Positions 16,061 through 64,000 of a stretch of 64,000 nt of DNA are shown here, piece by piece (position 1 is the stretch's first letter; each line of letters begins with the position of its first letter). Position numbers and translations under genes: made by a program. The DNA is from Mucilaginibacter cryoferens (GTDB taxonomy: Bacteria > Bacteroidota > Bacteroidia > Sphingobacteriales > Sphingobacteriaceae), in the NCBI RefSeq assembly GCF_014205845.1, contig NZ_JACHCR010000023.1, forward strand, positions 1 to 64,000, written 5' to 3'. The notes beneath the pieces are model-generated. The model saw nothing but the letters and a program-made list of their open reading frames with translations, did not search any database and was not told the DNA's origin.

Positions 16061-19000
16061 TTAAATTTTGCCTTTCATAACGTCATTTATGTTTTTTTGC
16101 AAGGTGGCGCCCAAATACGCTACGTGCGGTGGCAATAGCATAGAAAAATGGTCGCCGGGCACCTCAAATAACTCCACTCCTTTTTGCGCATATTTTTCCC
16201 AGCCTAGCAGGTTACCATACTCAACGTAATGGACGCTAATTTTCGCCTTGTAAAGGTAAAGCTTGCCATTGAACGGCTCAAGTGGGTAATTTCTAAAAGC
16301 AGTTACGTGCTTTGCCTTAATTTTATTCATCAGCTTATAAAACTCTTTGGTATCCTGTTTTTGAATCAGGGGGGGGACCTGATATGGGCTTTTTCCTCCG
16401 AAAAATTGATTTACAGACATTTTGAAAGCTTGTATCAAACGAGGGAAATGTCGCTTTGCTTTTTTGGGTAATAAGGAATACCAGTCTTTATACTCCGTTT
16501 TCTCGGCATCAGTATCAAAAATGATTAGCATTTCTACTTTTTTACCAAGTGTCAACATTTGCTTTCGTATCTCCATGGCAACATAACCACCGGATGAGTA
16601 CCCTGCTAAAAGGTATGGACCGCTGGGATTGTGCTCTATAATTTCCTGCATATAGAGGTACGCAATTACCGGTAAACTATCAATGGGCTCATCGACACCA
16701 TTAAGACCCAAGGCTTGTAAACCGTACAACGGTTGCTCCGGATCAACATACTTAGGAAGTTCACTAAAATTAAGCACGTTTAAGCCATCTCCATGGATAA
16801 TGTACAGCGGCGCCTTTGATCCCGACTGCTTTATTGGAACTAATGATTTATAATTATAGTTCCGCCTTTCGCTGTCAATAAACATCGATAGCATTCTTAT
16901 AGTTGGATATTCATATAAAGCTGAGATCTGAAAACTTTTTTGAGTTATCTTTTTTAGTTTTGACAGAATTTGCACTGCCATTAACGAGTGTCCCCCTATT
17001 TCAAAAAAATTACTGGTAACATCAAGTTCATTCCTTTTGAAGTATTCTTTCCAGATTTCTAATAACGTGTTTTCTGTTTCTGTTTCGGCCGCAACGAGTT
17101 TTTTGTCAGCCGCCGGCACTTCATTAACGTCTGGTAAAGCATTCCTGTCTATCTTTCCGTTGCCCGTCAGTGGGAATCTTTCCATTTCTACCCAGATTGC
17201 TGGTATCATATAATCGGGCAGAATTTCTTTAAGATACAATGCTAATACTTCCTTGGTTACTTTTACTTCTTTATGCACGATATAGGCTACCAGTCTTTTT
17301 ACCCCCTGCAAATCGTTTTTTGCCAATACTAAAGCACTCCTTATCAACCCACTTGTACTAAGAACATTTTCTATTTCCCCGAGTTCAACCCTAAAACCCT
17401 GGATTTTTACCTGGTTATCTTTACGACCGATAAATTCCATATTAAAATCGGGCATCATACGGCCAAGGTCCCCTGTTTTGTACATCTTGCCTCCATTAAA
17501 TGGATCGGCAATAAATGAAGCCGCTGTCTTTTCTGCATCGCTCGCATATCCCCTGGCTACCCCTACTCCACCTATATATAGTTCTCCTATTGTGCCAACA
17601 GGAACAGGCTGCAAATGGTCATTAAGAACATAAAAGAAATTATTTGCAATTGGCTTTCCGTAAGGTATGCTAGTCCAGTTTTTATCCACCTGCTCAACAA
17701 CAAAAAAATTAGACCAAACTGTCCCCTCTGTAGCACCGCCAAGGCTTATTACGGCTGTTTCAGGATAAAATTTCTTTATTTTATCGGGCAACTCCACCGG
17801 TATCCAGTCTCCGCTCATAAAAACGGTTTTTAACCCGTCATATCGATAGGCGGGTTCCTCCATTTCCAAAGTTCGCATTAGGTAATTCATAGTTGTCGGT
17901 ACCGAATCCCAAAAGGTAATTTTGTATTCAACAAGCATGGAATAAAGTTTTTTCACATCTTGGATCTCATCTTTTTCGGCAATAACCAAAGTACCGCCGG
18001 CCGCCAGCATGCCAAATATGTCATACACCGATAAATCAAAGCACATGGAGGTAATAAACAATAACTTGTCAGTTGGCCCAACATTAAAAATTTTATTAAC
18101 CCATAAAATAAGATTTACAGCGGAGTGGTGTTCTATCATGACTCCTTTCGGCCTGCCTGTCGAACCAGATGTGTAAATAGTATAAGCAAGTTGCGTACTA
18201 TCAATACTTAGATTTGGGTTCGCATCGGCAAATGAATTTGACACATCGGCGTCTATCAACTTAAAAATTTTCTTACCGATGACTGATTTGAGCTTATAAT
18301 TGGCATCAGCTACTATAATTTTCAGATGAGATTGGTTATAAATATACTCCTGCCGGTCAATCGGGTAATCGGGATCGATAGGCACGTAGGCTCCGCCGGA
18401 CTTTAAAATACCTAACATACCTATTATCATGTTAAACCCACGATTTACCAATAAGCCCACATTGTCGCCGGGTTTAATCCCTTCAGCAATGAGTTGATGC
18501 GCTAAACGGTTGGCCCGCTGGTTAACCTCATAATAGGTCAATTGTTTATCTGCCTTAGTAAGCGCTATATTATTTGGTCCTTTTAAAACCTGTTCTTCAA
18601 ATAATGAAAACAATGTTTTCTCTTTAGGGTACGCAGTCACTGTCCTATTAAAATCTTTTAATAATACAGTAGCCTCGGTGTTCCCAAGTATGTTATAGGA
18701 ACCGATACTTAAATCGGGATCTTTTATCGCCGTTTTTAATAAATTTATTAGATGATTACCAAAACGTTGTATAAACCCTATACCGAATTGCTCCTGGTTA
18801 AAAAAAAGTGATATACTTGTATTGTCAATAGTTTCTTTGATATGTAAACCAAAATAAAACCGATTGAACCGATTGATTAACTCGTTGACGAGTTCGATCT
18901 CAGGAGCCCCATTTGCAGACCGGATAACAGAATTTTCTTTTTCGCAAACAAAGAAAAATTGAAAAAACTCTTCACCAATAGGAAGTTTGGCTAACCCCTG

Positions 19001-19471
19001 TGGCAATTGAGCAGAACACAATCTTGTATAGTCACTAATCCCCGAAACTTGTGTATCAATATCTCTTAATTGGTTTAAAAAAGTTTGACGGCTATTAAAT
19101 TCACTCCAAAAACAACCAATATCCACATCTTCTGTTTCCTCGCTTTTAATAACTGCTTGCCCCAGTAATGTGAAGTTCTGCCCCGTATAACGCTGCAAAA
19201 TAATGTTAAAAGCAGTGATAAATATTGAAGACGAGGCAATATGGGCAGATTCACTAAATAACATTAGCGCTTCAGCCAGGCCATCGTCGATATCGATATC
19301 ATATTTACCCCGCTGAACGAAATTTTCAGTCGGTTTTGAGGCTTTGTTACCCTGCTTTATAAATGCATTTGCTTTACGGATCAGGTTTAAATTAATTGGT
19401 TCAATTTCATCAGGTAGCATTGTGGACATATCATGTTTTTTTTGTTTTAGGCTGCTCTTTTTACAGTTCAT
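16061..19471 (-). CDS. Single-module non-ribosomal peptide synthetase (partial C-A-PCP-TE)
   Basis: A 1136-residue enzyme. Residues about 50-265 resemble only the C-terminal half of a condensation domain and no HHxxxD motif is present. The adenylation domain spans about 280-770: YTSGSTGRPKGV (A3, about 433), a GATEG motif, GRKDNQVKIQGFRVELGEIE (A8) and NGKID (A10). The carrier domain has GGHSL, with the phosphopantetheine Ser at about 827. The thioesterase has GYSSGG (Ser about 960), FDTD and GDHFS (His about 1105). The ten specificity residues, aligned by eye to GrsA, read DLYDFSLVWK, close to cysteine-activating codes such as DLYNxSLIW. It would activate one amino acid and release it through the TE, perhaps onto a glycan. 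The role in EPS is inferred from position. Confidence 0.9.
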   Translation of the reverse strand: MNCKKSSLKQKKHDMSTMLPDEIEPINLNLIRKANAFIKQGNKASKPTENFVQRGKYDIDIDDGLAEALMLFSESAHIASSSIFITAFNIILQRYTGQNFTLLGQAVIKSEETEDVDIGCFWSEFNSRQTFLNQLRDIDTQVSGISDYTRLCSAQLPQGLAKLPIGEEFFQFFFVCEKENSVIRSANGAPEIELVNELINRFNRFYFGLHIKETIDNTSISLFFNQEQFGIGFIQRFGNHLINLLKTAIKDPDLSIGSYNILGNTEATVLLKDFNRTVTAYPKEKTLFSLFEEQVLKGPNNIALTKADKQLTYYEVNQRANRLAHQLIAEGIKPGDNVGLLVNRGFNMIIGMLGILKSGGAYVPIDPDYPIDRQEYIYNQSHLKIIVADANYKLKSVIGKKIFKLIDADVSNSFADANPNLSIDSTQLAYTIYTSGSTGRPKGVMIEHHSAVNLILWVNKIFNVGPTDKLLFITSMCFDLSVYDIFGMLAAGGTLVIAEKDEIQDVKKLYSMLVEYKITFWDSVPTTMNYLMRTLEMEEPAYRYDGLKTVFMSGDWIPVELPDKIKKFYPETAVISLGGATEGTVWSNFFVVEQVDKNWTSIPYGKPIANNFFYVLNDHLQPVPVGTIGELYIGGVGVARGYASDAEKTAASFIADPFNGGKMYKTGDLGRMMPDFNMEFIGRKDNQVKIQGFRVELGEIENVLSTSGLIRSALVLAKNDLQGVKRLVAYIVHKEVKVTKEVLALYLKEILPDYMIPAIWVEMERFPLTGNGKIDRNALPDVNEVPAADKKLVAAETETENTLLEIWKEYFKRNELDVTSNFFEIGGHSLMAVQILSKLKKITQKSFQISALYEYPTIRMLSMFIDSERRNYNYKSLVPIKQSGSKAPLYIIHGDGLNVLNFSELPKYVDPEQPLYGLQALGLNGVDEPIDSLPVIAYLYMQEIIEHNPSGPYLLAGYSSGGYVAMEIRKQMLTLGKKVEMLIIFDTDAEKTEYKDWYSLLPKKAKRHFPRLIQAFKMSVNQFFGGKSPYQVPPLIQKQDTKEFYKLMNKIKAKHVTAFRNYPLEPFNGKLYLYKAKISVHYVEYGNLLGWEKYAQKGVELFEVPGDHFSMLLPPHVAYLGATLQKNINDVMKGKI

Positions 19472-30344: not shown

Positions 30345-31013
30345 TAGGCGTATAAGTGTTTTGAGGAGAAAATTAGCATGATTTATCCGGTAAAAAACGT
30401 AAAAATATTACGGCTTTATGGATTCCCGGGTAACAAATCCTATAAACTTTCCTTTCAATTAAAAAAATCAATCATTAACGTCGAATTTGTGTCGTGAATT
30501 TCAAAAAACAGCATATAATGTGTCAACTCCTAATGATTGATGTTAACCCGATCGAACACTTGATAATGAAAAAAAATCAGGAGCTTACAGTTTGTTCACA
30601 AATACCACATGCAGTTTTAACGGTCAGCAGACCATTAACTCATTAAAAAAAACAACATCGAGGACCAAATACCTGATTTTTTTTAGACCCAGATGCCCGG
30701 ACTCAACGACTGGTTGTAGCTTAACCAATTGGTGCCTTCATTTAGAAAAACGTAGACGTTCATATTTACTCTTCATCAATTGATCCAAAAGACCGTTACC
30801 ACTCAAAAACTTATTCGCTTGTAAAATATCGGCAAACCAATGAAAAAACAAACTTTGGAGAATATGTTTTTAAAATACACTAAATAGATAGCTTTGCCTC
30901 ATAACCAATTTGTCACCGGCACAGAAAATAATTGCAGTTTTTTAAAACTTAATATGACTATCCGCTTGTAGATACCAAAAAATTTACTATCTTTGTGTAA
31001 GTCATTCAAAGAT
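30345..31013. other. 0.67 kb intergenic region left of the transposase
   Basis: AT-rich, no supported gene. It should contain the left end of the IS element if that is complete, but I could not find an inverted repeat matching the sequence after the transposase stop. The 63-codon frame at 30592-30783 has no motif. The promoter of the transposase lies at the right end. Confidence 0.5.
30966..30995 (+). promoter_or_regulatory. Bacteroidota-type promoter of the transposase gene
   Basis: TATCTTTG at 30988-30995 matches the -7 consensus TAnnTTTG exactly. A TTG at 30966-30968 sits 19 bases upstream, at the place of the -33 TTTG element. The ATG at 31014 follows 18 bases after the -7 box. This argues against the earlier TTG at 30993 being the start codon. 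Confidence 0.6.
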
Positions 31014-31988
31014 ATGAATTTACTCGATTTTAACAACAGGTTTCCAGACGAATTATCATGCAGGCAATACTTGCGTTTAAAACGCGAAGAGGAAGGTATA
31101 ACCTGCAAAAACTGCGGCGGAGTTAAACACTACTGGTTAGAGAATAAAAGTCGGTGGAGATGCGCTAATTGCATGTCTACAACAAACCTTCGTTCTGGCA
31201 CCATAATGGAGAAGTCAAAACTTCCAGTGAAAACCTGGTTCATGTGCATTCATTTAATGACATCAACTAAAAAAGCATTCTCCGCATTGGAAATGCAACG
31301 ACAATTAGGATCTAAACGCTATGAGCCTATTTGGTACATGATGCAGAAGATACGACTTTCAATGGCAAAGCGTGATGCCAAATACAAACTGCAAGGCAAT
31401 ATCGAAGTAGATGATGCATACTTTGCCATAGTAGATCTTCCTGAAGTGGACGAACTGGGAAATAAAAAAGGAAGCGGACGGGTCGTTAATACCGATGGCA
31501 AAGATGACGGCGAACAAAAACGTGGTCGTGGAAGCCAAAAACAACAGCAAGTTTTAGTAATGGTAGAATCCAATCCTAATCCCGATCAGAAAAACACACA
31601 CAAGAAGAAAAGAGCAATGGGCTTTGTAAAGATGGTGATCATGGATAATTTAAAAGGAGACAGCGTAAACTACGAGGTTGCAAAAGCTGTCCATCCAAAC
31701 TCATCAGCAATAACCGATGCCATGGGTGGCTTTACCAAACTTAAAGCTATCTTAGCGAACCACACCGCAACAGTGATACCCAAAAAAGAAGCTGGCAAAA
31801 CATTGCCATGGGTACATACTGTCATAGCAAATGCAAAAAGACTTTTCTTAGGCATTCACCATTCTGTAGGAAAAGAATATCTGCAAAATTACCTTAGTGA
31901 ATATTGCTACAAACTTAACCGCCGCAACTTCCAGTCTGATCTATTCGATAGAATGATCCTTGCCGGAGCCAATGACACTTGGTATTAA
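31014..31988 (+). CDS. IS1595-family (ISXO2-like) transposase
   Basis: A 324-residue DDE-type transposase counted from the ATG at 31014. The N-terminal zinc ribbon has two Cys pairs (TCKNCGG and RCANC, about residues 28-50). The catalytic ISXO2-like domain begins with VDDAYFA (first Asp about 129). A second acidic region is VIMDNLKGDSV and the distal part is EYCYKLNRR, where this family carries its last catalytic residue. A Lys/Gly-rich insertion (KRGRGSQKQQQ) between the first two motifs is normal for the family. Full length with no stop, so probably active or recently so. Terminal inverted repeats and target duplications were not found by eye. Confidence 0.9.
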   Translation: MNLLDFNNRFPDELSCRQYLRLKREEEGITCKNCGGVKHYWLENKSRWRCANCMSTTNLRSGTIMEKSKLPVKTWFMCIHLMTSTKKAFSALEMQRQLGSKRYEPIWYMMQKIRLSMAKRDAKYKLQGNIEVDDAYFAIVDLPEVDELGNKKGSGRVVNTDGKDDGEQKRGRGSQKQQQVLVMVESNPNPDQKNTHKKKRAMGFVKMVIMDNLKGDSVNYEVAKAVHPNSSAITDAMGGFTKLKAILANHTATVIPKKEAGKTLPWVHTVIANAKRLFLGIHHSVGKEYLQNYLSEYCYKLNRRNFQSDLFDRMILAGANDTWY

Positions 31989-33699: not shown

Positions 33700-35226
33700 A
33701 TGGAAAACCAATCAACACACCAATTAAGCGGTAGCTACCTTCCGCCTAAAAGCAGCGAAACACTGCAGCAATCCGGCAAAGACGAAGTGATAGAAGTATC
33801 CGTACGGCTTAATCGTAAAAAAGCGCTGCCCAGTCCGGCGCCCGCAGGCGCCTTGCTGAGCCGACCGGATTATGAAACGCAGTATGGTGCCGACGCCGCG
33901 GCCGCAGAGCTGGTCGAAACCTTCGCGCACAGCCATGGCCTCACTACGGTCGACATAGACCTCGCCCGGCGCACCATCCAGCTTAAAGGAACGGTAAGCG
34001 AATTTGAAGCTGCTTTTAACGTTCAATTGATGACCAACGGCAGTTACCGGCTATTAAACGGTGCGATCCATATTCCCGAAAGCTTGAAAGATATTATTGC
34101 CGGGGTATTTGGATTAGACAATAAGCCTATAGCGCGGCCGATGTTCCAGGTGGCAAAAAAGGACGGAAAAGTTGTTTCACACGCGGCCGCACCGCAGGCA
34201 TTTACACCTGTAGAGCTGGCCGCCCTTTATGATTTCCCAACAGGCGTTAGTGGCAAAGGCCAATGTATCGCCATCATCGAACTGGGAGGCGGTTTCCGCA
34301 ATAAAGATATTACACAGTATTTTAATGGATTATCCCTACATGCACCCAACGTTAAGGCGATCAGCGTAGATAACGCGAAGAACAGTCCCGGTACTGCTGA
34401 TGGTGCCGATGGCGAAGTGATGCTGGATATAGAAGTAGCCGGCGCGGTGGCACCGGGGGCTAAAATAGCGGTCTACTTTGCACCCAATACCGATAAGGGC
34501 TTCCTGGATGCGATAACCAAAGCCATTCACGACACCACCAATAAACCGTCGGTGATCTCCATTAGCTGGGGTTCTGCCGAACTGAACTGGACACCGCAGG
34601 CGCTGGATAATTTTAACGAATCTTTTAAAACGGCCGCAGCACTGGGTATTACCATCTGTATTGCCTCAGGCGATAGCGGGTCGCGGGATGGTGAAACCGA
34701 TGGTAAGGTGCATGTTGATTTTCCGGCATCAAGCCCTTACGTACTGGCTTGCGGCGGTACCCGCCTTACAGTAGACAACAACACCCTAACATCGGAAGTT
34801 GTATGGCATGATGCTGACGATTCTGCCTCCGGCGGTGGTGTAAGTGATTATTTTGCCCTCCCCGATTACCAGGCCAATGCAGGGGTGCCGTTATCCATCA
34901 GCACCAAATTTAAAGGCCGTGGCTTACCGGACGTTGCCGGAGATGCCGACCCGGATACCGGCTATAAGGTTTTGGTCGACGGCCAGGAAATGGTGATCGG
35001 CGGTACCAGCGCCGTGGCGCCCCTGATGGCAGGATTAATCGCGCTATTGAACGAAAAGACCAAATCCCCGGCGGGATTCATCAACCCTAAAATTTACGCC
35101 AATCCATCAATTTGCAGGGATATCACTGGCGGAGATAATAAAACAACAAGTGCAAAAACGGGCTATACGGCCGGACCGGGTTGGGATGCCTGCTCCGGGT
35201 TAGGCGTTCTTTCCAGGCTTTCCTGA
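33700..35226 (+). CDS. Sedolisin-type serine-carboxyl peptidase (S53)
   Basis: A 508-residue endopeptidase precursor. Residues about 25-160 form the pro-kumamolisin activation domain (ARRTIQLKGTVSEFEAAF). The peptidase domain starts near 175 (TPVELAALYDF). Catalytic positions are seen: Glu and Asp in DGEVMLDIEVAGA (about residues 228-240, spaced i and i+4), the oxyanion Asp in SGDSG (about 325) and the nucleophile Ser in GGTSAVAPL (about 430). No signal peptide is visible, as in several kumamolisin relatives, so its site of action is unclear. Base composition is richer in GC than its left neighbours. A strong terminator follows. It lies 2 kb from a RiPP precursor, so leader processing is conceivable but unsupported. 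Confidence 0.92.
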   Translation: MENQSTHQLSGSYLPPKSSETLQQSGKDEVIEVSVRLNRKKALPSPAPAGALLSRPDYETQYGADAAAAELVETFAHSHGLTTVDIDLARRTIQLKGTVSEFEAAFNVQLMTNGSYRLLNGAIHIPESLKDIIAGVFGLDNKPIARPMFQVAKKDGKVVSHAAAPQAFTPVELAALYDFPTGVSGKGQCIAIIELGGGFRNKDITQYFNGLSLHAPNVKAISVDNAKNSPGTADGADGEVMLDIEVAGAVAPGAKIAVYFAPNTDKGFLDAITKAIHDTTNKPSVISISWGSAELNWTPQALDNFNESFKTAAALGITICIASGDSGSRDGETDGKVHVDFPASSPYVLACGGTRLTVDNNTLTSEVVWHDADDSASGGGVSDYFALPDYQANAGVPLSISTKFKGRGLPDVAGDADPDTGYKVLVDGQEMVIGGTSAVAPLMAGLIALLNEKTKSPAGFINPKIYANPSICRDITGGDNKTTSAKTGYTAGPGWDACSGLGVLSRLS

Positions 35227-35721: not shown

Positions 35722-35964
35722 ATGAATACAGATCTGACTATCCTACAAAAGCCTATAAAACAGATTCATACAAGCGCATACTTTGAGAATAAGTGCCGGA
35801 TCATGGGCTTTCAGAATCTGGAGGAGATACTGGCCTGCAACCAGGCGATATTGCAGAAAAAAGCCGGATTTTCTTATTTGTGGCTGGAAGAATTACTTAG
35901 TATACTTAGTGAGCACCAACTATTAACACGATGGCAACCCATAACGGGAAAAAACTCCTTTTGA
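35722..35964 (+). CDS. Small HhH-like protein (RNA polymerase alpha-CTD-like), hypothetical
   Basis: An 80-residue protein. The central part, KCRIMGFQNLEEILACNQAI then AGFSYLWLEELLSILSEHQ, has the pattern of paired helix-hairpin-helix motifs as in the RNA polymerase alpha C-terminal domain. Similar short proteins occur widely in Bacteroidota next to XRE or conjugation-type regulators. This family link is from pattern only. Its last 59 bp overlap the end of the 381-residue gene on the other strand. The operator-like dyad is 37 bp upstream of its ATG. Confidence 0.55.
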   Translation: MNTDLTILQKPIKQIHTSAYFENKCRIMGFQNLEEILACNQAILQKKAGFSYLWLEELLSILSEHQLLTRWQPITGKNSF

Positions 35965-37051
35965 GATTGGAGGTCATTTTTTGCAACAGATCAAGGATAA
36001 CAGCCGCGGTTTTCTGGGTGATGCTGTAATACTGCATCTCGTAACTGCCTTCGGAGACAGCCAACGTTCGTTTCGTACTGCTGTTATCAGCGTTGAATTT
36101 GATCACATTTGCGACAGTCGTGTCATAGATACCTACCTCGTAAAGCAGCCTGCTCAGGCAGGCGTGCTGCGCTACCGATAGCTTGAAAGGAAGTTTAAAT
36201 GAAGGCCTGCGCATGGCTTCCTCTTCCCGGATACGCTTTTCCAATGTTGCAGCTTCTTCAGCAAGCCAATTCCGCAACATCTTAGTTAAAGGCGGCCATA
36301 CGGGGTTGAAGCTCGTAATCATCGCGTCATCCGCGAGTTTCGGCAAACCAGCGTATTCCATAAGAATATAATCCCGTTGCTCCACACATGTTTTGCTTTC
36401 GACTTTAACGCGTATTGCCTTTACGAGGTACTTGAAAAAACCGTGATGGTTAAAATTCAGTGATAGCAATAAGTCGACCAGATCCTCATTGATATCATGG
36501 TCATCGACCAGAACAGGTAGTAATTTAAGCGCCAGGTTTTCCAGGTATTTCAATGAACCGGCCGTAATGAGCGTGTCATCTTCCCTTTTTAACAGGAAAT
36601 ACAGCGCAGGCAACAGGCAATCGGCGATCCCCCGGTTCACCCGCGGATCTTCCAGGTAAGACACCAGCCTTTTAAAACTATGGTCCAGCTCTGGTAACAC
36701 CAATAACCGGTAATCGAGAACGGTCTCGTCGGAAAGAAATACCCGAAAAAAAGTATACAAATGGGTCATTAACCCAATAATAGACTCTTTATCAAATTCA
36801 AATTCATAGGAACAATCGGAAGGAGCAATTACAAGCTCCCGAAGCACATTCATATGGTATGAAAAATACCGCTTCAACGCCACTTTGTTAGCACCCGAGA
36901 AAGCGGCAGTCTCCCAGGCAAGCCGGATACTGCCGCTTAATTCCCGGAACTGGCAGGAAAAACACGCTTGCCCGGGCAGATCAACTTCCGGAATCGCTTC
37001 CTGTCGAAGCAATATGATCAAAGGACCAAGTTCGTTCTTCAGCAGTTCCAT
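35906..37051 (-). CDS. Uncharacterised 381-residue protein coupled to the RiPP precursor
   Basis: A mostly helical protein. An early CFSC pair (about residues 31-34) might bind metal. The C-terminal 90 residues (LSVAQHACLSRLLYEVGIYD to VILDLLQKMTSNL) resemble a domain found in RteC-like and other Bacteroidota accessory proteins, and the last 15 residues (FFPLWVAIVLIVGAH) are hydrophobic. Its ATG is 8 bp after the stop of the precursor peptide gene (37060-37215), so both are on one transcript. That makes a role in precursor handling, immunity or regulation likely, but none can be chosen. Downstream it overlaps the 35722-35964 gene tail to tail. Confidence 0.6.
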   Translation of the reverse strand: MELLKNELGPLIILLRQEAIPEVDLPGQACFSCQFRELSGSIRLAWETAAFSGANKVALKRYFSYHMNVLRELVIAPSDCSYEFEFDKESIIGLMTHLYTFFRVFLSDETVLDYRLLVLPELDHSFKRLVSYLEDPRVNRGIADCLLPALYFLLKREDDTLITAGSLKYLENLALKLLPVLVDDHDINEDLVDLLLSLNFNHHGFFKYLVKAIRVKVESKTCVEQRDYILMEYAGLPKLADDAMITSFNPVWPPLTKMLRNWLAEEAATLEKRIREEEAMRRPSFKLPFKLSVAQHACLSRLLYEVGIYDTTVANVIKFNADNSSTKRTLAVSEGSYEMQYYSITQKTAAVILDLLQKMTSNLKRSFFPLWVAIVLIVGAH

Positions 37052-37059
37052 AACATTAT

Positions 37060-37215
37060 TTAACCGAAATGCGTGGTGGTCGTTACCGTGGTACAGGTTC
37101 CGGTCGTATCACCTGAAGTAGATGTGGTGGTTTCAAAATTTTCCGCCTTAGCCCCCTTTAGAGCATACAAAGAACGTACCTCTTTTTTAGGCAGTTTGTG
37201 TTTGTTATTTTTCAT
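37060..37215 (-). CDS. Lanthipeptide-like RiPP precursor peptide
   Basis: A 51-residue peptide. The leader (about residues 1-28) is basic then acidic and carries KLPKKEVRSLYALKGAKAE, which resembles the Bacteroidota class I leader pattern K-L-x-x-x-K-E-x-x-x-L. The core (residues 29-51) has 13 Thr, 2 Ser and one Cys (position 41) in its first 20 residues, ending THFG. Such Ser/Thr density next to Cys is the substrate expected for a LanB dehydratase, and one is encoded 1.9 kb away (39109-42084). The gene diverges from the histidine kinase gene and is followed after 8 bp by the 381-residue gene. With one Cys, at most one (methyl)lanthionine can form. No protease site is obvious. Confidence 0.75.
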   Translation of the reverse strand: MKNNKHKLPKKEVRSLYALKGAKAENFETTTSTSGDTTGTCTTVTTTTHFG

Positions 37216-37228
37216 ATATTATTATTTT

Positions 37229-37244
37229 TTTACTATTTTACTAT
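37229..37244. repeat. Tandem 8-bp repeat in the precursor/kinase promoter region
   Basis: TTTACTAT occurs twice head to tail at 37229-37236 and 37237-37244, within the 101-bp divergent region between the precursor and the LytS-like kinase. It may be a binding site for the LytTR regulator encoded next door, but it does not match the classical LytTR consensus well. Confidence 0.35.
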
Positions 37245-37316
37245 TAAATATTTCAAACATCAATTCTGTTACACAGAAGGTAGCATTGTGCAGATAAAAA
37301 CAATGATAATCGAAAA

Positions 37317-38375
37317 ATGACTAACAGCCCGCGTTTTTTTCAGTTAATTGGCATCCATGTACTTTGTTGGTTCGCCTTCATTGTGTATGAGACCACCATT
37401 AACTATTTTCTATCCGTTCCGATTCATTTAAGTACGATATATTTTTATGTGTGCAACATTACCTTATTCTATACACATGCCTATATCCTGGACCTGACAT
37501 TCAACCGTCCCGAACCGTCCTGGACTCTTGCATTAAGCTTTTTTGCACTGGAATTATTGGCAGTTTTACTGCTTAAACTGGCCGGCGACTATCTTACCTT
37601 GCCGCCACACCTCAATTTTCCGCATAACAAACGAGTACTTAAGGCATACCTTGTTACAGACCTGGGCAGGAGCGCTTTTTATACTGCGTTAGCCACACTT
37701 TATTGGTACCGCGGATTTAACGCTACTTTAAGACAAGAAAAAGCAGCTGCCTTAATGCGCGAATTAGGAACAGCCAAGGACAATGCAGAACTCAAAGCCA
37801 GCCTCGCTGACTCCCGGAATGCTTTTTTGCAGCAACAACTTAACCCCCACCTGATCTTTAACACACTCAACTTTATTTACAATGCAGTATACCGCGTATC
37901 CGAAGACGGCGGCAAGGCGGTACTATTGCTGGCCGATATCCTCAACTTCAGCCTGAGAGATACCGATGAAAGCGGAAAAATCCTCCTGGCCGACGAGTTG
38001 GAACAACTCGACAACCTGGTCCGTATTAACCGGTACAGGTTTCACTTTCCGCTGCAGATCGAACTTTCTCTCGACGGAACACCCGGTGATCAGCGGATAC
38101 TGCCGCTGATCCTGTTAACGCTAACCGAAAACATGTTCAAACATGGCGATTTCCGGCTACAGCCCGCATTTATAACCATGAATATCACAGAGGGCGGCTA
38201 TCTCCGGTTTAGCACAAAAAACACAAAAAAACACCTCACCGCAGACCGAAATGAAAAAGGGATCGGCATCCGGAACATCCGTATGCGCCTTGAACACGCC
38301 TATAAGGACAACTTTATCCTGGAAACCGAAGAGACAGATACACATTACCATACCACCCTTGAAATACAATTATGA
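37317..38375 (+). CDS. LytS-like sensor histidine kinase
   Basis: A 352-residue membrane sensor with four hydrophobic segments in the first 140 residues, a short coiled-coil linker and a LytS-type kinase core. The phospho-acceptor motif is QQQLNPHLIFNTLNFIYNAV (His at about residue 179, usual form NPHFLFN). The ATP-binding domain has LTLTENMFKHGD (N box, about 267) and GIGIRNIRMRLEHAY (G box, about 318). It probably senses an extracellular or membrane signal and phosphorylates the LytTR regulator whose ATG overlaps its TGA (ATGA). It diverges from the RiPP precursor gene, as expected for a dedicated regulator. Confidence 0.9.
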   Translation: MTNSPRFFQLIGIHVLCWFAFIVYETTINYFLSVPIHLSTIYFYVCNITLFYTHAYILDLTFNRPEPSWTLALSFFALELLAVLLLKLAGDYLTLPPHLNFPHNKRVLKAYLVTDLGRSAFYTALATLYWYRGFNATLRQEKAAALMRELGTAKDNAELKASLADSRNAFLQQQLNPHLIFNTLNFIYNAVYRVSEDGGKAVLLLADILNFSLRDTDESGKILLADELEQLDNLVRINRYRFHFPLQIELSLDGTPGDQRILPLILLTLTENMFKHGDFRLQPAFITMNITEGGYLRFSTKNTKKHLTADRNEKGIGIRNIRMRLEHAYKDNFILETEETDTHYHTTLEIQL

Positions 38376-39106
38376 CCCTATCCTGCTATATCATTGACGA
38401 TGAATTCCATGCCGTAGAGGTATTAACCGATTACGTCGAAAAAACACCCGGGCTTCAACTCGCCGGATCAGCTACAGATCCATTGCTGGGGCTGGACGCG
38501 ATTACCAATAGCTTTCCGGATATCACCTTCCTGGACCTGGATATGCCAGGTATCACCGGGCTTGAACTTGCCAGGATCGCAGGGAACAGCACCGCCATCG
38601 TGCTGACCACCTTTCACCGGGGCTCGGGCCCCGAAGCATTTGAGATCGGAGTGGCCGACTACCTGCTCAAACCGATCTCCTACGAACGCTTCCTGAAATG
38701 CATCCAAAAGATCAAGCAGGAAAAACAATTGGCGGCCTCTTTAGTCGCCTCCGGGCCTTTCTCATTTCTTGTTAAAACAGATACCAAGGGTAAGCTGTTC
38801 CGGATCTTCGCGCCTGAGATCATTTACATATCCAGCGAGAAAAACTACCTGCATATCCATCTCGAAAAAGAGACTATCAAAGCCTACCTCACGCTGACCG
38901 AACTCCTGGAAAAACTCCCCGCGGAGCAGTTCTGCCGGGTGCACCGCGCTTTCATCGTTAACCTGCGTTGCGTCAGGACCATCGAGCCGGGGTTCGCCCG
39001 TTTAACCAACCATACTACCGTTGATATCGGCCCTACTTATAGGGAGGATTTCCTGCAAAAACTGGACGCCGAACTCATCGTCAGCCACCGGCAACACAAA
39101 AACTAA
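38372..39106 (+). CDS. LytTR-family response regulator
   Basis: A 244-residue DNA-binding response regulator. The receiver domain covers residues about 1-120, with the phosphorylated Asp in ITFLDLDMPG (about 55) and the conserved Lys in DYLLKPISYERF (about 104). The LytTR domain covers about 140-240 (YISSEKNYLHIHLEKETIKAY, RVHRAFIVNLRCV). It overlaps the kinase gene by 4 bp, so the two are translationally coupled. It ends 2 bp before the stop of the convergent LanB gene. The likely targets are the precursor promoter and perhaps the LanB/MauE divergent promoter. Confidence 0.9.
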   Translation: MTLSCYIIDDEFHAVEVLTDYVEKTPGLQLAGSATDPLLGLDAITNSFPDITFLDLDMPGITGLELARIAGNSTAIVLTTFHRGSGPEAFEIGVADYLLKPISYERFLKCIQKIKQEKQLAASLVASGPFSFLVKTDTKGKLFRIFAPEIIYISSEKNYLHIHLEKETIKAYLTLTELLEKLPAEQFCRVHRAFIVNLRCVRTIEPGFARLTNHTTVDIGPTYREDFLQKLDAELIVSHRQHKN

Positions 39107-39108
39107 GA

Positions 39109-42084
39109 TCATGCCCTTTTCTCTCTTGCCGCCAGCGACAACGCGTATTTATAACAACAATGATAGACAACCATTTCGTGTTCACGCTGCCTGGAAATAA
39201 AAAAACGGTTCAACTGCATATGGATAAGATCAGCAAGCAGGCCATCCCGTTTATAACCAGTCCACGACATGCTATCTGCCGCCAGCACCTTTAGGGGGGC
39301 TTCCATTCCACCCAGCGAAAAGCCGCCCTCCCCTGCCACCCGGCCGCCCTCCAAAATTTCGCGCATGGGCCTGCTCACCGTACGAAACTTAAGATCTAGA
39401 TCTACCAATAATTGCTGATCGCCATTAAATTCGGCCAGAAACCTTCGCTGCTGAATTTCAAAAAAACCGACCAGAAGATCCGAGTCAGCTATAAAAATAC
39501 GGCACATCTGCCACACCAATGCCAACGCTTTTAATTCCGCGGTTTCCGGTTCCCGCGATCCATTCTGAATAGCCTGCAGCACATCAGTACTCCCTGCGCA
39601 AAACAACGCCTCTACTTTACCGATCAAACCGGCTGAGTATCTTTCCAATTCCCTGTTATACGTATCATGCTTATAATCCCGAACCAATGCGCCATGATGA
39701 CCCTCAGAAAGCAAACGTTTAAGCTTCCGCAGGATAAAAGTCGCGTCATTACCGGAAGAACGAAACCGTACCCGGAGATGCGGCTCCGGGTCCTGGTAAC
39801 GGATAAAAAACCAGCAACTGATCCTGGCCCCGGCCTGATCCAGCGCGGGGGCTATCACGTCCTGCAATACTTTGTCCGCGCTTAACGGTGTACAGTAAAG
39901 CTTCACGTAAAGCCATTCACCGCCAGGCAAAAATGTCCTTTCCACATACTCCTCGTCCACCCGCGACGGAAGCGGGGCATAAACGGCCACTTTACTTTTC
40001 AGAAACGCCATAACCTCCCCGGCGAGCCGCTTTTTTCCCGCCGTTACCGTATCTCCCGGTAACAGGTATTCTTTCAGCAGGGCGGTCTTTTCCTCCTTCA
40101 GGCAATCCAGAAAAAATAACGCCTCGCGGTCGTTACCCAAGTCAAAAACCAGTAACTGATCGCTGAGCCCCAGAGAAATTCTTCGCGGAATACCGCGTTC
40201 CTGCCGAAAAAGGTGTAGCCTGCCGAGCGGGCTTTCGCTTTCCTGTAGAAAGCTGATCTCCGATTTGCTGAGATACCAGCGCGCAAGACTCAGGATACAG
40301 CCCTGATAAATGACCCTGGGATAAAATCCGAGACCCGGAAAAAGTCTTTCCAGGTTGAATGATAATTCCGTCTGCAGCCCCTGAAACTGCATATCACACA
40401 ACAGCCTGAATACCGGGAGATCATTATGACGAAAATTATAGGCCGTGGGAAGCCGGGGTACCACCCGCAAACCCTGCGTAATGGATTCCAGCACCACCTG
40501 GTCGTTTACCACAGAAACCAGCAGGTCACCCGGAAGCAGCTGCTTTTCCTCTTCGGTACCGGGAAAAACATATAAAGGAATGATATGATCATAGATCCTG
40601 CTCCGCCTGTTAATATTATCGACATGATGGTGGGATAGCTGGTGCAGTTCAGCAAAGATCACCCCCGGATTGGCTTCGGCTTCTGCGGCCGCGATCTCCC
40701 GGCAAAGCGCCGAAATTTCGGGGGTAAAGACCGAAAAGCGGCCCGCCAGCGCGGTAGCGGACGCGCCGCCAACGGCACCGAGTATCAAATAATCCGGTGC
40801 TTCCGAATAAAGGACGACCATACTCGGAGGCGGTTGTAATGCCCCGGCTCTTTCCGGGAGCTCCAAAAGATCTTCCTCCCGGATCACCAGGGGGCCGACG
40901 TTTCCTTTCGCTGGGTTACCCAGACCCAGCCTTAAAAAAAGGCGATGCACCGCCGTCCATTCCAGTTCAGCACGTTCAGCAGGCCCCGGAATCCTTAATC
41001 CTTTCAGTCCCTCCTGCGCGTATTGTTCCCGGTGCAAACGCGCATAACCAACACCGGCATCCGGGTCCAGCGCTTTTAACAAGGGAACCCGCTGCGACTC
41101 AAACCTGGCTTTAAATTCCCGGATGAATGCCTGGAGGTCCCTGTTGGGTGCCTGCGGAACGATACGCTGTAGCAGGCTGACAGCCGCGGCCAGCCGCGCT
41201 TTAACCTGTTCATCGATGCCCCCACGGTAAACCGGACGTTCCAGCCCCGAGTAGAACAATTGACCGGCCAAACCCTCGTTTTTACCGTTCCCGAAGCGCG
41301 AGAGCAGGCCAATATGCGCCAGCTGCGTGGCAGACCTGCCGCAGGGAAGCCCCGTACCGGGCTCCCGAACAGGATTCTGCTGACCATCTGCCGAAACCTC
41401 GATCAGCCCTCCGGAAGGTCCCAATAATACCTGTTCCGCTGTTAAAAACGCTATATAACCTGCCGCCTCTCCGGCAGTGCAGCCGGACCGCCCGGCCAGC
41501 AGTTGTATTAATATACTTCTACGCATAGTCGTTTTTCTGCACGCCTCAACGAGAAAATCATTCGTGGCATTGGAATCGACCGCGCTGATATTAAACCGAA
41601 GTTTCCCGTTTCCGTCAGCAAAGGCTGCCATGTAACGCCATTCGGCGCCGATCCGGTAGAGTAACGGGTTTGACCTCAGATCGCAATCTTCCGAACAACC
41701 AGCAACAAGGTCGCTGATTTTTCGCGACTGGGCCGGCAGCAGATGCAAGATACATTCCCCGTCTTTTGCCAGCCTCACCTGCCGTTCGGGCGACCAGGAA
41801 GCGAGGGTAAATGCCGCGAAGCTCCCAAAGGGAGTCGGCCGGAACGACATCCGGTTATAATATTTCTGCAGGGTGAAACGCTCCCGCTGCCCGAGCGCGG
41901 CCCATTCAAAGTTCTTTTTTTCAAGCGAGCGGTAAAAATCCTGGCTGGCAAGCCAGAGCGCGTTCCGGAAATCCGGTTGTTGCAGCACCTCCGACACCTT
42001 ATTTAAATCGTAGTCATCCAGGCTGTAAAAAGGCGTTCTTAACAGCAACCTGTCCCAAAAATCATATTGTTGTTCGTTGTCCAT
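39109..42084 (-). CDS. LanB-type lanthipeptide dehydratase, full length
   Basis: A 991-residue class I dehydratase that would use glutamyl-tRNA to glutamylate Ser/Thr of a precursor and then eliminate glutamate, giving dehydroamino acids. The N-terminal glutamylation domain starts RTPFYSLDDYDL and has YYNRMSFRPTPFGSFAAF (about 70-87) and HHHVDNINRRSR (about 485-496). The C-terminal elimination (SpaB_C) domain starts with EWLYVKLYC (about 723) and has CWFFIRYQDPEPHLRVRFR. Length is typical of fused LanB. GC content is clearly higher than in the flanks. Its start diverges from the MauE-like gene 86 bp away. The precursor at 37060-37215 is the only obvious local substrate. No LanC was found. Confidence 0.92.
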   Translation of the reverse strand: MDNEQQYDFWDRLLLRTPFYSLDDYDLNKVSEVLQQPDFRNALWLASQDFYRSLEKKNFEWAALGQRERFTLQKYYNRMSFRPTPFGSFAAFTLASWSPERQVRLAKDGECILHLLPAQSRKISDLVAGCSEDCDLRSNPLLYRIGAEWRYMAAFADGNGKLRFNISAVDSNATNDFLVEACRKTTMRRSILIQLLAGRSGCTAGEAAGYIAFLTAEQVLLGPSGGLIEVSADGQQNPVREPGTGLPCGRSATQLAHIGLLSRFGNGKNEGLAGQLFYSGLERPVYRGGIDEQVKARLAAAVSLLQRIVPQAPNRDLQAFIREFKARFESQRVPLLKALDPDAGVGYARLHREQYAQEGLKGLRIPGPAERAELEWTAVHRLFLRLGLGNPAKGNVGPLVIREEDLLELPERAGALQPPPSMVVLYSEAPDYLILGAVGGASATALAGRFSVFTPEISALCREIAAAEAEANPGVIFAELHQLSHHHVDNINRRSRIYDHIIPLYVFPGTEEEKQLLPGDLLVSVVNDQVVLESITQGLRVVPRLPTAYNFRHNDLPVFRLLCDMQFQGLQTELSFNLERLFPGLGFYPRVIYQGCILSLARWYLSKSEISFLQESESPLGRLHLFRQERGIPRRISLGLSDQLLVFDLGNDREALFFLDCLKEEKTALLKEYLLPGDTVTAGKKRLAGEVMAFLKSKVAVYAPLPSRVDEEYVERTFLPGGEWLYVKLYCTPLSADKVLQDVIAPALDQAGARISCWFFIRYQDPEPHLRVRFRSSGNDATFILRKLKRLLSEGHHGALVRDYKHDTYNRELERYSAGLIGKVEALFCAGSTDVLQAIQNGSREPETAELKALALVWQMCRIFIADSDLLVGFFEIQQRRFLAEFNGDQQLLVDLDLKFRTVSRPMREILEGGRVAGEGGFSLGGMEAPLKVLAADSMSWTGYKRDGLLADLIHMQLNRFFISRQREHEMVVYHCCYKYALSLAAREKRA

Positions 42085-42170: not shown

Positions 42171-42605
42171 ATGAAAAAAATAATTCATACCATCGTCCCG
42201 TTCCTGCTCATCATCCTATTCACCTACGCAGCAGCAAGCAAGCTGATGGACGTTAACCGCTTCCGCAGTCAGCTTTACCTGCAACCCTTTTCACATGGCA
42301 TCGCTGATGTACTGCTATACGTCCTCCCGACAGGAGAACTTTTACTCGCGACAATGCTCTGTTTTAACCGTACACGCTTCACCGGCCTCTTACTGTCTAC
42401 CTTACTGATGGCTGCATTCACCGCTTATATATCTATGATCCTGCTGCATTATTGGGGCAAGGTCCCCTGCTCCTGCGGCGGCATCCTCGAAAACATGTCA
42501 TGGCCGGTACACCTCGCTTTTAACTGGGCCTTTCTTCTAGCCGGTGTTACAGCGATTATCCTGCAACTTTCTGGTAATAAACGCGAACAAAACGACCTGA
42601 TCTGA
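42171..42605 (+). CDS. MauE/DoxX-like redox-associated membrane protein
   Basis: A 144-residue inner-membrane protein with four hydrophobic helices: IVPFLLIILFTYAAASKL, YVLPTGELLLATML, LLLSTLLMAAFTAYISMILL and LAFNWAFLLAGVTAIIL. The motif PCSCGG between helices 3 and 4 is typical of the MauE/DoxX-like methylamine-utilisation group, whose members assist disulfide or cofactor chemistry of exported proteins. In Bacteroidota it is often found near DUF6520 and SusC/D genes, as here. It diverges from LanB and precedes the DUF6520 gene by 122 bp. Confidence 0.85.
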   Translation: MKKIIHTIVPFLLIILFTYAAASKLMDVNRFRSQLYLQPFSHGIADVLLYVLPTGELLLATMLCFNRTRFTGLLLSTLLMAAFTAYISMILLHYWGKVPCSCGGILENMSWPVHLAFNWAFLLAGVTAIILQLSGNKREQNDLI

Positions 42606-42727: not shown

Positions 42728-43012
42728 ATGAAAAATTCAAAAGCAGCCATCTTCGCCCTTGCCTTCGTATTAGGCATCGGTGGCGCGTTCAGCACCCACG
42801 CGGCCAAAGCCAGCCACAAACCGGCAGCCGTATGGTGGAAGTTTAACGGCTTACAAACACAGATCACCGATCCTGCCCAGTACACCTTCAGCTCCCTGGA
42901 ACCTACCTGTTCCGCAGGCTCCGACCGTTGTGCTGTTGAAGCTAACCGCAGCACCGCCAATCCTGCCCAGCCAGATCTTTCTACCATCACGCATGAAGAC
43001 CTGAAACCTTGA
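42728..43012 (+). CDS. DUF6520-like exported protein
   Basis: A 94-residue protein with a Sec signal (AAIFALAFVLGIGGAFSTHAA) and a mature part carrying WWKFNGL and the double-Cys motif CSAGSDRCAVEA (about residues 61-72). These features match the short DUF6520 family of Bacteroidota. The function is unknown. The two Cys residues could form a disulfide, and the neighbours encode a MauE-like protein and a thioredoxin-like protein, so redox handling of this protein is a reasonable guess. A strong bidirectional terminator follows. Confidence 0.75.
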   Translation: MKNSKAAIFALAFVLGIGGAFSTHAAKASHKPAAVWWKFNGLQTQITDPAQYTFSSLEPTCSAGSDRCAVEANRSTANPAQPDLSTITHEDLKP

Positions 43013-59503: not shown

Positions 59504-61822
59504 CTACCCCCTGGAGATTCTGATGAACCAGACCACCTGATTCCGGCGCAAGCACTCCCCTATCAATTCAGGAACTTGCGATGGATGACAATATAACTTG
59601 AAATATAACCATTCCTGTCCGGGTGCAATAGTTCTCGATATGCCAGGTGATCCAGAATCTGGCAAAACATGTGCTTCATAGATATTCTTGTCTCGATAAA
59701 GCGCAGCGACGAATTGGTTCAGCAACGGCTTTTGTTCTCCGTTAACACAAAGGCTATAATCATCATCGGGATAAATAAATTCTTTCACAATGATCTCTTT
59801 CTGCGTTTTTATAGTCTGAAAAAAGAAAAGAATTTCATCAGTATTGTTCAGGTTGTATACCAACTGCCGATCATTAGCGGTTAAGGCAATCCATTGCGGA
59901 AATCTTAGTTGTTTCTTTATTTTCTTAAAAATGATGAAAAATTCGCTTTGCGGAGCGTCAATCAAATCTTTAAACTCGCTGGAATCAAGTTGCCATGTTT
60001 CGGGGCTAAGAATAGTGTCCTGAAACTCAATCCGCGGATAATGCTTGAGGTTAGGAAATAGCTGACTTAGGTCGAGTTTAAAGCCGGTATGCATATTTTG
60101 GTACTGAAAATCACACAAAAACTGGAAAACGGCCAGGTTGTTTCTTGAATAAGTGAAGGCTGAGCTCAATCTGGGGATCACTCTTTTGCCATGGTTTTTA
60201 GAATACAGAATAATTTGGCGACCAGCAATATAAAGCCAAAGATCTGAAAGTAAAATCTGATGCTCATCATCTAAGGTTGACTCTGTTAAAACCGGAATTT
60301 CATATGGATATAAATGCTCCCTTCTGTTTATATTGGCCGTATGTAAATTGCATACATGAACGATCTCAGCAAAAATTACTCCCGGATTTAATGCTACTTC
60401 TTTTTGCGCAATTGTTGCAGCATGTAGTTTAATGTTATCGTCAAAAGGTGTAAATCGACCGGTAAGAGATGTGGCGGTAATTCCGCCAACGTTTTCAATC
60501 AAAATTTTTTTTCCGGCAACCCTAAAAACTACAGAAATTGAGGGTGGCAATGCATCTTCATCTTTTGGATAATCCAACCTTTTAAGGTCATTTTCGGTTA
60601 ATTTAATCACCTGCTTTTTTGTCCCGGCGTTTACTATTGGGGTATTCCATTTTTCAAGTAATAACTGATGTACTTTAGTCCACGGAAATGCTGCCCGATC
60701 TTTTTCGTCAGCTGGCCAATAAACGTCTTTAAGCAATATATTGTCTTCGGTATGTTGTGCCAAGTTATGGTAACTAATACCAGTTTGCGGATCAAGGGCA
60801 TAAAGTAATGGAACCATTTGAGTGCCAAACTTTTTTTCAAATAGTTGAAAAAAACCATCCATACTGTCATTCGCCGGGACTTGACAACTTATTTTAAAAA
60901 GGCAGTTTAAGGCTTCTGAAACCGATTTTTGGTAGGCAATATTTAACGAGCCCTCTATTGCGGTGCCACTTACATTAACATACACGTCGGCAGAGTTTTG
61001 GATATATTTACGAATACCCAGTTCAACATCCAAACTTTTGGCTACGTTATATACTGTAAAAGATTTATTAACAGATTGTTGATCGTCATTATTTATTTGC
61101 TTTAATACTCTTTGTAAAAAAGGTTCTCCTGATATATTGGGAATTAAATCATCAACTAAAACTTGTAGATTAATAAGATCATGAACAAGCAGTTCAGCTT
61201 CTTCGGTAGATAATACTTGATTAACGGTTAAATACGCTATTAACTCATACAGCGATAGTTTTTTTTTGCAATATTCTAATAACTGTTCAACTACATCAAT
61301 TGCCTGTATCGAGCTTATATTAAAATCAAGTGATTGGGTTTCCTCATTAAAGTAAGTTGCCAGATACCGTAACTCCATACCCACCTTATATAGGCTTGGA
61401 TTTTTTCTATACCGGTGTTTTTTGATATCAATAGATTCCTTTATAGCTTCAACAGTTTTAAATTCCTTTTCGAAGCTATTTTGAAGATGTATAGTTTGGA
61501 GGGGAATAACAATTTTTTGCTCGTTGCCCCATTTAACGGCTGTTGTGGCTGTGAATAAACCAAAAGGTACCGGGCGATAATTAATACGGTTATAATATTT
61601 TTTAACCGTTAGCAGCTGCTTTTCATCCAGTTTGCTTAAATCAAAGTCAATCTTTTCCAACTGCTGATAAAATGTAGAACTGGCAACTAATAGTGATTCG
61701 CGAAAATATTTGCTCTTTAGTTTTTTTTTGAGATTTCTGAGAGAATAATCTTTAAAAGAAAAGATCGGCGTTCTTAAAATAAGTGTTTGATAAAAATGAT
61801 AAGGATACTTTTCAACCGACAT
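59504..61822 (-). CDS. LanB-type dehydratase lacking the elimination domain
   Basis: A 772-residue protein homologous to the LanB at 39109-42084 over its glutamylation domain. It shares LILRTPIFSFKDYSLR, YYNRINYRPVPFGLF (about residues 70-84), HTANINRREHLYPYE and EWLYFKLYC (about 740). It then stops after VVWFIRISRG, where the full-length copy continues with WFFIRYQDPEPHLRVRF and 230 more residues. The SpaB_C elimination domain is therefore missing. Either it is a truncated pseudogene or it works with a separate elimination protein, as in split LanB systems such as pinensin. None is seen in the window. AT-rich, unlike the first LanB. Confidence 0.85.
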   Translation of the reverse strand: MSVEKYPYHFYQTLILRTPIFSFKDYSLRNLKKKLKSKYFRESLLVASSTFYQQLEKIDFDLSKLDEKQLLTVKKYYNRINYRPVPFGLFTATTAVKWGNEQKIVIPLQTIHLQNSFEKEFKTVEAIKESIDIKKHRYRKNPSLYKVGMELRYLATYFNEETQSLDFNISSIQAIDVVEQLLEYCKKKLSLYELIAYLTVNQVLSTEEAELLVHDLINLQVLVDDLIPNISGEPFLQRVLKQINNDDQQSVNKSFTVYNVAKSLDVELGIRKYIQNSADVYVNVSGTAIEGSLNIAYQKSVSEALNCLFKISCQVPANDSMDGFFQLFEKKFGTQMVPLLYALDPQTGISYHNLAQHTEDNILLKDVYWPADEKDRAAFPWTKVHQLLLEKWNTPIVNAGTKKQVIKLTENDLKRLDYPKDEDALPPSISVVFRVAGKKILIENVGGITATSLTGRFTPFDDNIKLHAATIAQKEVALNPGVIFAEIVHVCNLHTANINRREHLYPYEIPVLTESTLDDEHQILLSDLWLYIAGRQIILYSKNHGKRVIPRLSSAFTYSRNNLAVFQFLCDFQYQNMHTGFKLDLSQLFPNLKHYPRIEFQDTILSPETWQLDSSEFKDLIDAPQSEFFIIFKKIKKQLRFPQWIALTANDRQLVYNLNNTDEILFFFQTIKTQKEIIVKEFIYPDDDYSLCVNGEQKPLLNQFVAALYRDKNIYEAHVLPDSGSPGISRTIAPGQEWLYFKLYCHPSQVPELIGECLRRNQVVWFIRISRG

Positions 61823-63633: not shown

Positions 63634-64000
63634 TTAAACGGAAAAGTAACCACGTAGCGTGAATGTAATATCGGGTTTAGTTGCCTGAATTGTTGATCCA
63701 TCGTGCAACATGTTTTCTGTTGGCGCTATGTAAGCTTCAAATGGATGAATGGCAATTTTTACTACCGGGTATGATTGATAATGTTTAAAAAAGCGTTGGC
63801 CCAAATGCCACTGCGTATTTTCCAGGTGAAAGTCTCCTTCTTTTTCAACTATTCTGCTTTTGATATTGTTAAGGGGTTGATTAACAAATAGCAAGTACCT
63901 GGTTTGTAAACCTAAGTTTATACAAACGCGATTTTGCGCTAAGTGAGCACCTTCAATTGTAGCATTTTCCCAATTATCTATATGTAAACCTACATATTGC
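63634..64000 (-). CDS. Second HxD...H protein, partial at the window edge
   Basis: The open frame continues from its stop at 63634 to the window end without interruption, so only the C-terminal 120 residues are seen. They read QYVGLHIDNWENATIEG, QNRVCINLGLQTRYLLFVN, YPVVKIAIHPFEAYIAPTEN and MLHDGST, matching the 61866-62690 protein motif for motif, including HxD and HDGST. It is the upstream partner of the phosphoesterase, 51 bp away on the same strand. An apparent TTG start at 63894 is internal to the conserved region and can be ignored. The gene start lies beyond 64000. Confidence 0.65.
   Translation of the reverse strand, partial: QYVGLHIDNWENATIEGAHLAQNRVCINLGLQTRYLLFVNQPLNNIKSRIVEKEGDFHLENTQWHLGQRFFKHYQSYPVVKIAIHPFEAYIAPTENMLHDGSTIQATKPDITFTLRGYFSV

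Follow-up and report, generated by a model that had tools for sequence, protein, structure and literature searches.

A threonine-rich candidate RiPP precursor that travels with LanB and LytS/LytTR genes in Mucilaginibacter and related bacteria

Described systems and the cassette in the window

Antimicrobial activity is common among characterised LanB products, and the induction of nisin runs through a two-component system. To our knowledge, those class I lanthipeptides of Bacteroidota that have been produced use the cyclase LanC. Conjugative transposons of the CTnDOT type are under RteA/RteB/RteC control. RteC is described as a regulator of excision, Bacteroidota outside the Bacteroidales are acknowledged as a source of class I lanthipeptides, and lanthipeptide-related cargo on conjugative elements is known (nisin, and an ABC exporter on Riemerella elements). 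A large lanthipeptide survey (PMC7268733) was anchored on LanC and discarded Cys-less cores, so that a survey of this design would miss the peptide family presented here. The cassette to which this family belongs was unreported in the open-access PMC literature searched; most subscription papers lie beyond that search.

We analysed a 64,000-nucleotide stretch of the Mucilaginibacter cryoferens genome (contig NZ_JACHCR010000023.1, positions 1 to 64,000), hereafter the window. The original prediction, made from its letters alone, had pointed to a 51-codon frame encoding a charged leader and 13 Thr, 2 Ser and a single Cys within 20 residues. These features are borne out by the ORF at 37060-37215 (minus strand), whose full translation is MKNNKHKLPKKEVRSLYALKGAKAENFETTTSTSGDTTGTCTTVTTTTHFG and whose 20-residue stretch is TTTSTSGDTTGTCTTVTTTT. 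Its surroundings, too, were confirmed from the coordinates. The frame is co-directional with the 381-residue gene with which it had been placed in one operon, and it diverges from a LytS/LytTR pair that is convergent with a LanB gene. The relevant features are listed below; counts in brackets refer to loci introduced in the next section.

35722..35964, plus strand: p80, an 80-aa ORF convergent with T and overlapping its end (22 of 41 further loci); it recurs in the non-conjugative cassette type
35906..37051, minus strand: T, a 381-aa all-helical protein with a weak RteC-like signal, co-directional with P at an 8-bp gap; no Pfam match
37060..37215, minus strand: P, the probable 51-aa precursor, recognised from the ORF and its homologues, with a basic leader and the Thr-rich core DTTGTCTTVTTTTHFG
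37216..37316, no strand: divergent P-LytS intergenic region, a probable control region for P-T and/or LytS
37267..37274, minus strand: octamer GTGTAACA, starting 59 nt upstream of the P start codon; the pattern [GT][TC]GTAA[CT]A recurs there in relatives
37317..38375, plus strand: LytS-type histidine kinase (His_kinase, PF06580), divergent from P
38372..39106, plus strand: response regulator with a LytTR DNA-binding domain (PF00072, PF04397)
39109..42084, minus strand: 991-aa full-length LanB with glutamylation and elimination domains (PF04738, PF14028; NisB alignment and catalytic residues), convergent with the regulator
42171..42605, plus strand: MauE-like gene beside LanB, accessory (15 of 41)
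42728..43012, plus strand: DUF6520 gene beside LanB, accessory (6 of 41)

The LytS and LytTR genes overlap, and the gap between the convergent LytTR and LanB genes is 2 bp. Nothing matched P in NCBIfam and Pfam searched at E 1. The leader motif LxLxKx5L has been described for LanA peptides of Bacteroidota (PMC7268733); compared with it by eye, the P leader has LxKx5L at residues 8-16, with His6 in the first-Leu position.

Several other features of the window were recorded. On the T side of the cassette there are an IS1595-type transposase (30993-31988) and a subtilase-family protein with a pro-kumamolisin activation domain (33700-35226). A polysaccharide region (133-29173) comprises Wzz, an export protein, an O-antigen ligase, a glycosyltransferase and a Polysacc_synt gene, and includes a 1136-aa NRPS-like protein (16061-19471). 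The 6.95-Mb genome assembly (64 contigs) has four LanB loci. The window holds a second LanB (59504-61822, minus strand, 772 aa), in which the elimination domain is broken off after about 22 profile positions. A 274-aa ORF lies upstream of it (61866-62690), an ORF with a similar tail end is found at 63634-63894, and no LytS/LytTR pair was noticed alongside.

Recurrence of the cassette and its genomic settings

The genome itself codes for a paralogue of P (52 aa, E 0.0014), likewise with T, LytS and LytTR as neighbours. Searching with T matched 54 of 199 genomes, the own genome included, and gave 70 rows, 68 of them foreign. We examined 41 further loci, namely the best 40 of the 68 foreign rows and the own paralogue. 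Among the other foreign rows, 12 entered through the precursor search described below, 12 weak ones were left out and four were met otherwise: L228, in which T stands without any other cassette gene, and L056/L229, L071 and L222, which are second, more distant T-like genes.

A Thr-rich peptide is encoded directly upstream of T in all 41 further loci (identified by eye in ORF lists). All 41 also have LytS, with one of these genes truncated at a contig end; LytTR was found in 40 and a full-length LanB in 37. Two of the four LanB misses coincide with contig ends (L010 and L044), one locus (L049) has a C-terminal remnant of about 94 aligned residues, and in the remaining one (L058) LanB is about 41 kb off. 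This last case is a split cassette in Mucilaginibacter sp. L294 (G105): L058 has P, T, LytS and LytTR, and the same contig carries, at a distance of about 41 kb, a solitary close LanB (L118). Wherever the arrangement was measured (66 of 66 loci), P is followed co-directionally by T, at a median gap of 36 bp.

We then built a profile from 42 precursors. It matched 68 places in 53 of 149 genomes of the genus, so that the expectation of an uncommon peptide did not hold. Twenty-eight of the places, partly non-independent because the layouts of L205-L207 are near-identical, lie outside the training set and served as a held-out test. Within about 9 kb of them we found LytS in 28 cases, LytTR in 27, LanB in 26 (two of these, L202 and L217, short or in pieces) and T in 19. 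The two LanB misses are a contig end (L198) and a locus in which LanC stands beside the peptide and the nearest LanB is about 12 kb off (L224). Applied to 395 sampled genomes of the phylum, the profile gave convincing matches only in two (G000 and G065), and three other matches had no partner genes.

The paralogue, the constant position in 41 of 41 loci and the same partners at the held-out loci argue that P is not a chance ORF. It is a genuine gene travelling with LanB and LytS/LytTR, and the kinase and regulator are as constant in the cassettes as LanB itself. The proposal of a real RiPP-type precursor adjoining a LanB has thus stood up, homologous short frames being present at the same position in related genomes.

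The peptides share a common plan. The motif D[PTNV]T opens the core in 41 of 42 (DPT in 34), each core contains 6 to 11 Thr and Ser residues (median 8), and the Thr share is 31% in the core versus 14% in the leader. NCBIfam and Pfam gave no credible match for the family. More distant peptides of a similar plan, many recognised by eye, are divergent from LytS in T-less LanB loci of Pedobacter, Pontibacter and Daejeonella and, more loosely, of Niastella; in another variant, again often identified by eye, such a peptide lies between LytS and LytTR. Two further LanBs of the own genome, on contigs C12 and C3, are likewise accompanied by LytS, LytTR and a Thr-rich short ORF (by eye). These ORFs, in other arrangements, are at L012:2226-2387 (minus strand, C12) and L011:9244-9381 (plus strand, C3).

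The structural model of T is all-helical, of high confidence and without a recognisable relative. RteC (PF09357) was considered as an identity for T and rejected: none of 42 T proteins matched at E 0.1, and profile comparison gave a probability of 53 at 12% identity. Relatives of T at the superfamily level occur in at least 118 of 251 genomes of the family, many scoring far below the cassette type.

To describe the settings of the cassette, we used 54 loci with T (T-cassettes), a set that excludes L010, L044, L198, L202, L205, L207, the window and loci from named records. An rteC gene follows T on the same strand in 24 of the 54, 4-263 bp after it (the RteC family was clustered by BLAST, and two members were verified as PF09357). 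In 18 of these 24 rteC-type cassettes at least one of the TraE, TraF, TraG and TraJ families is found further along on the same strand in the examined stretch. As for the remaining six, L201 has an accessory family only, L079 and L081 are at a locus end, and none was seen in L210, L211 and L212. In six more T-cassettes (L062, L063, L068, L069, L073 and L199), TraE or TraG follows T co-directionally at a distance of 6-9 kb; in L063 a relaxase and a ParA-like gene lie between T and the tra genes. Overall, rteC (24) or tra genes (6) stand behind T on the same strand in 30 of the 54.

The window falls into the second setting, which is characterised by a convergent p80 (23 of 54), by SusC/SusD-like genes beyond LanB (15 of 54; names read by eye, not from a family search) and sometimes by MauE. 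One locus, L046 (G039), mixes both settings: its cassette is of the p80/SusC type, and tra genes lie 4.6-8.2 kb from it, on the opposite strand. The window cassette has no rteC behind T, and the only RteC match of its genome is on another contig. The nearest TraG gene (PF19044) on the same contig lies outside the window, at C23:105132-106346, about 63 kb beyond the cassette LanB; the contig may thus hold a conjugative element. Among the 22 largest gene families around the 54 T-cassettes, inspected by eye, we recognised no exporter or leader peptidase and no constant protease or immunity gene.

Taken together, we lean towards a reading in which P gives rise to a RiPP that LanB modifies and no cyclase closes, the cassette regulates itself through LytTR, and the product plausibly serves as a signal. 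An antimicrobial, bacteriocin-like peptide, with T or p80 providing immunity and the two-component system acting as inducer, would agree with general precedent (the antimicrobial LanB products and the nisin induction mentioned above). We nevertheless regard it as unlikely, given that the families around the cassettes include no recognised constant exporter, protease or immunity gene and that rteC or tra genes follow T in more than half of the T-cassettes. In addition, a single core plan is kept over divergent genomes, as the frequency of DPT illustrates, whereas bacteriocin cores would be expected to change fast.

Predicted modification of the precursor

We found no LANC_like match in the own genome. 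A profile made from two LanCs detected LanC in 26 of 154 scanned loci but at no T locus among the 41; in a control it recovered only four of eight distant LANC_like loci and is thus not very sensitive. A better test is the Pfam LANC_like search of the 149 genus genomes, 50 of which have a match somewhere. Within the contigs of the 59 foreign T-cassettes, LANC_like matches come no closer to a cassette than 9.5 kb (G578), the second smallest distance being 44 kb. Moreover, no LANC_like is among the matches listed for 15 of 34 and 7 of 18 genomes with foreign T-cassettes. Two P-like peptides, both in T-less clusters, do adjoin a LanC (L213 and L224). The L213 cluster (G600), with LanC and LanB, contains a P-like peptide without Cys and, separately, a short ORF rich in Cys; one LanB may serve two precursors there.

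The distribution of Cys was examined in parallel. A core Cys occurs in 13 of the 42 peptides and is always single; 29 cores have none, and 20 peptides are Cys-free throughout. Within the last 22 residues, Cys is found in 2 of 24 rteC-type peptides versus 16 of 42 of the rest. As a single Cys is present in 13 of 42 cores only, thioether formation is no conserved property of the family. The suggestion of one Cys, no LanC and at most one thioether ring fits the peptide and genome of the window, but the Cys is not a family trait.

These data also bear on the possibility of an ordinary class I lanthipeptide, in which a LanC encoded elsewhere would close one methyllanthionine ring at the single Cys. 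The Cys of the window core, the LANC_like matches in about a third of the genus genomes and the two LanC-adjoining peptides are in its favour. We consider it improbable all the same, in view of the LanC-free own genome, the distances over the 59 foreign cassettes, the genomes with no LANC_like among the matches listed and the predominance of cores without Cys. From the gene content, with no LanC near the cassettes, we expect instead that the cyclase-free product retains its dehydro residues, a thioether being incidental at most and confined to Cys-bearing members.

Alternatively, P might be an unmodified regulatory peptide of LytS/LytTR, with LanB acting on another substrate. This arrangement could be suspected since P adjoins LytS whereas LanB is a separate convergent gene, and since L058 and L224 have P and LytS without LanB in the examined stretch. 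Yet full-length LanB accompanies the peptide in 37 of 41 T loci and LanB in 26 of 28 held-out loci, and Thr is concentrated in the core as a LanB substrate would show. We therefore give this option little credence and return to P as the probable LanB substrate.

The window LanB matches Lant_dehydr_N and Lant_dehydr_C, with PF14028 covering residues 724-980, and aligns with NisB and chain 9g04_A. Residues R83, R87, R784, R786 and R826 of NisB all align to arginines in it. Across 60 cassette LanBs, including that of the window, the equivalents of R83 and R87 are present in 59 (one gap) and those of R784, R786 and R826 in all 60. The His of a C-terminal HxxxNR motif, which probably corresponds to NisB H961, is also kept in all 60. 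According to a review (PMC4979651), the NisB mutants R786A, R826A and H961A glutamylate but do not eliminate. With the catalytic residues intact, cassette LanBs are expected to dehydrate fully. It is very improbable that they glutamylate or aminoacylate only, in the manner of PEARLs (described as relatives of LanB), because the elimination domain PF14028 is present and the equivalents of the elimination residues are invariant.

The enzymes also group by cassette. In a tree of 125 LanBs, 60 T-cassette enzymes fall into one group of 63 rows, the other three being L118, L218 and L223; this grouping corresponds to 4 label changes versus 41.8 in shuffled data. LanC-linked LanBs are separated, 22 of 23 belonging to another group of 31 rows. 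The tree was made by a quick method and has some long branches.

Control region and comparison with known systems

LytTR regulators bind tandem direct repeats about two helical turns apart. We inspected the P-LytS region for such an arrangement in 69 loci, which gave 68 regions (L127 had no precursor match). Removing 13 regions shorter than 80 nt, several of them due to an early start picked by the ORF caller, and seven near-copies left 48 non-redundant regions. When these regions are shifted against themselves by 21 bp, their similarity exceeds that of dinucleotide shuffles by z 6.4, the next highest value among offsets 13-35 being z 2.6 at 20. The 21-bp repeat of the window itself is weak (5 of 11); L215 is an example of a relative in which the repeats are strong. 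The octamer pattern was picked with the sequences in view; 21 of the 48 regions have it at 45-80 nt before P, versus 0.36 in mononucleotide shuffles. By type, it is found in 17 of 21 rteC-type regions and 13 of 34 of the rest; the window has GTGTAACA at -59. Upstream of LanB the octamer is hardly enriched (4 of 59 versus about 2), and periodicity there, under a laxer mononucleotide null, gives z 4.3 at offset 24 and 1.6 at 21. Thus, a LytTR-type site architecture, with tandem repeats upstream of the target, is present family-wide and weak in the window alone. It points to the regulator acting on the P-T promoter or the LytS promoter.

Based on these observations, the preferred reading of P as a LanB-modified, cyclase-free peptide can be laid out in four steps. 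First, the LytTR regulator would bind the tandem repeats between P and LytS and switch on P-T, as the recurrent 21-bp period suggests. Second, LanB would recognise the basic leader, glutamylate core Thr and Ser via Glu-tRNA and eliminate glutamate, giving a peptide rich in dehydrobutyrine; the constant linkage and the intact catalytic residues argue for this step. Third, the product would be linear or have at most one non-enzymatic ring, because there is no LanC and usually no Cys. Fourth, LytS may sense the product, directly or after trimming, and so close a feedback loop; this step, the weakest, is proposed from the adjacency of P and LytS and by analogy with nisin and Agr. T would be an accessory protein or a regulator. 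With no recognisable constant exporter or peptidase, an exported signal would need a host route. Against this reading we weighed the weak repeat of the window (which does have the octamer), the post hoc choice of the octamer and its lower frequency outside the rteC type, the periodicity seen at other offsets before LanB, the widespread relatives of T, the solitary T of L228 and the LanC neighbours in L213 and L224.

In element-borne cassettes the P-T transcript may extend into rteC and tra. A more specific possibility, which we hold only tentatively and with more doubt than credit, is that the LanB-made, cyclase-free dehydropeptide is the signal of a LytS/LytTR circuit, and that this circuit has P-T and, in integrative conjugative elements, P-T-rteC-tra as its target operon. 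A RiPP would then gate conjugation in Bacteroidota, and copies of the window type would be derived or ancestral.

P, LanB, LytS and LytTR form a compact system for asking what role a dehydrated, uncyclised peptide plays. Should the product of P signal, the system would link RiPP chemistry with sensing and, where an element carries the copy, with the horizontal transfer of genes in Bacteroidota. What we rate as new here is the likely cyclase-free LanB RiPP tied to a LytS/LytTR circuit.

The closest described relatives are the class I lanthipeptides of Bacteroidota (pinensins and the Pedobacter lusitanus, Chryseobacterium and Runella clusters), with which the cassette shares LanB, a leader followed by a Ser/Thr core, and the phylum. 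T-cassettes have a full LanB and, beside it, a precursor with leader and Ser/Thr core; they differ in that LanC is absent and Cys optional. Like nisin with its NisRK autoinduction, P is a presumably dehydrated peptide whose gene lies beside those of a two-component system, its possible sensor. Here, however, a LytS-type kinase (PF06580) is paired with a LytTR-type regulator, no NisC equivalent was found, and near T-cassettes we recognised no counterpart of NisT or NisP. Agr-type signalling shares the peptide gene beside a kinase and a LytTR regulator, as well as tandem repeats about two helical turns apart, but its modifying enzyme is AgrB, whereas here it would be LanB. Finally, the window copy differs from CTnDOT-type conjugative transposons in having no rteC behind T, while 24 of the 54 T-cassettes share with them an rteC directly behind T, followed by tra genes in 18 of the 24. 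In place of RteA/RteB/RteC control, the upstream control in these cassettes would be exerted by LytS/LytTR and a LanB-modified peptide.
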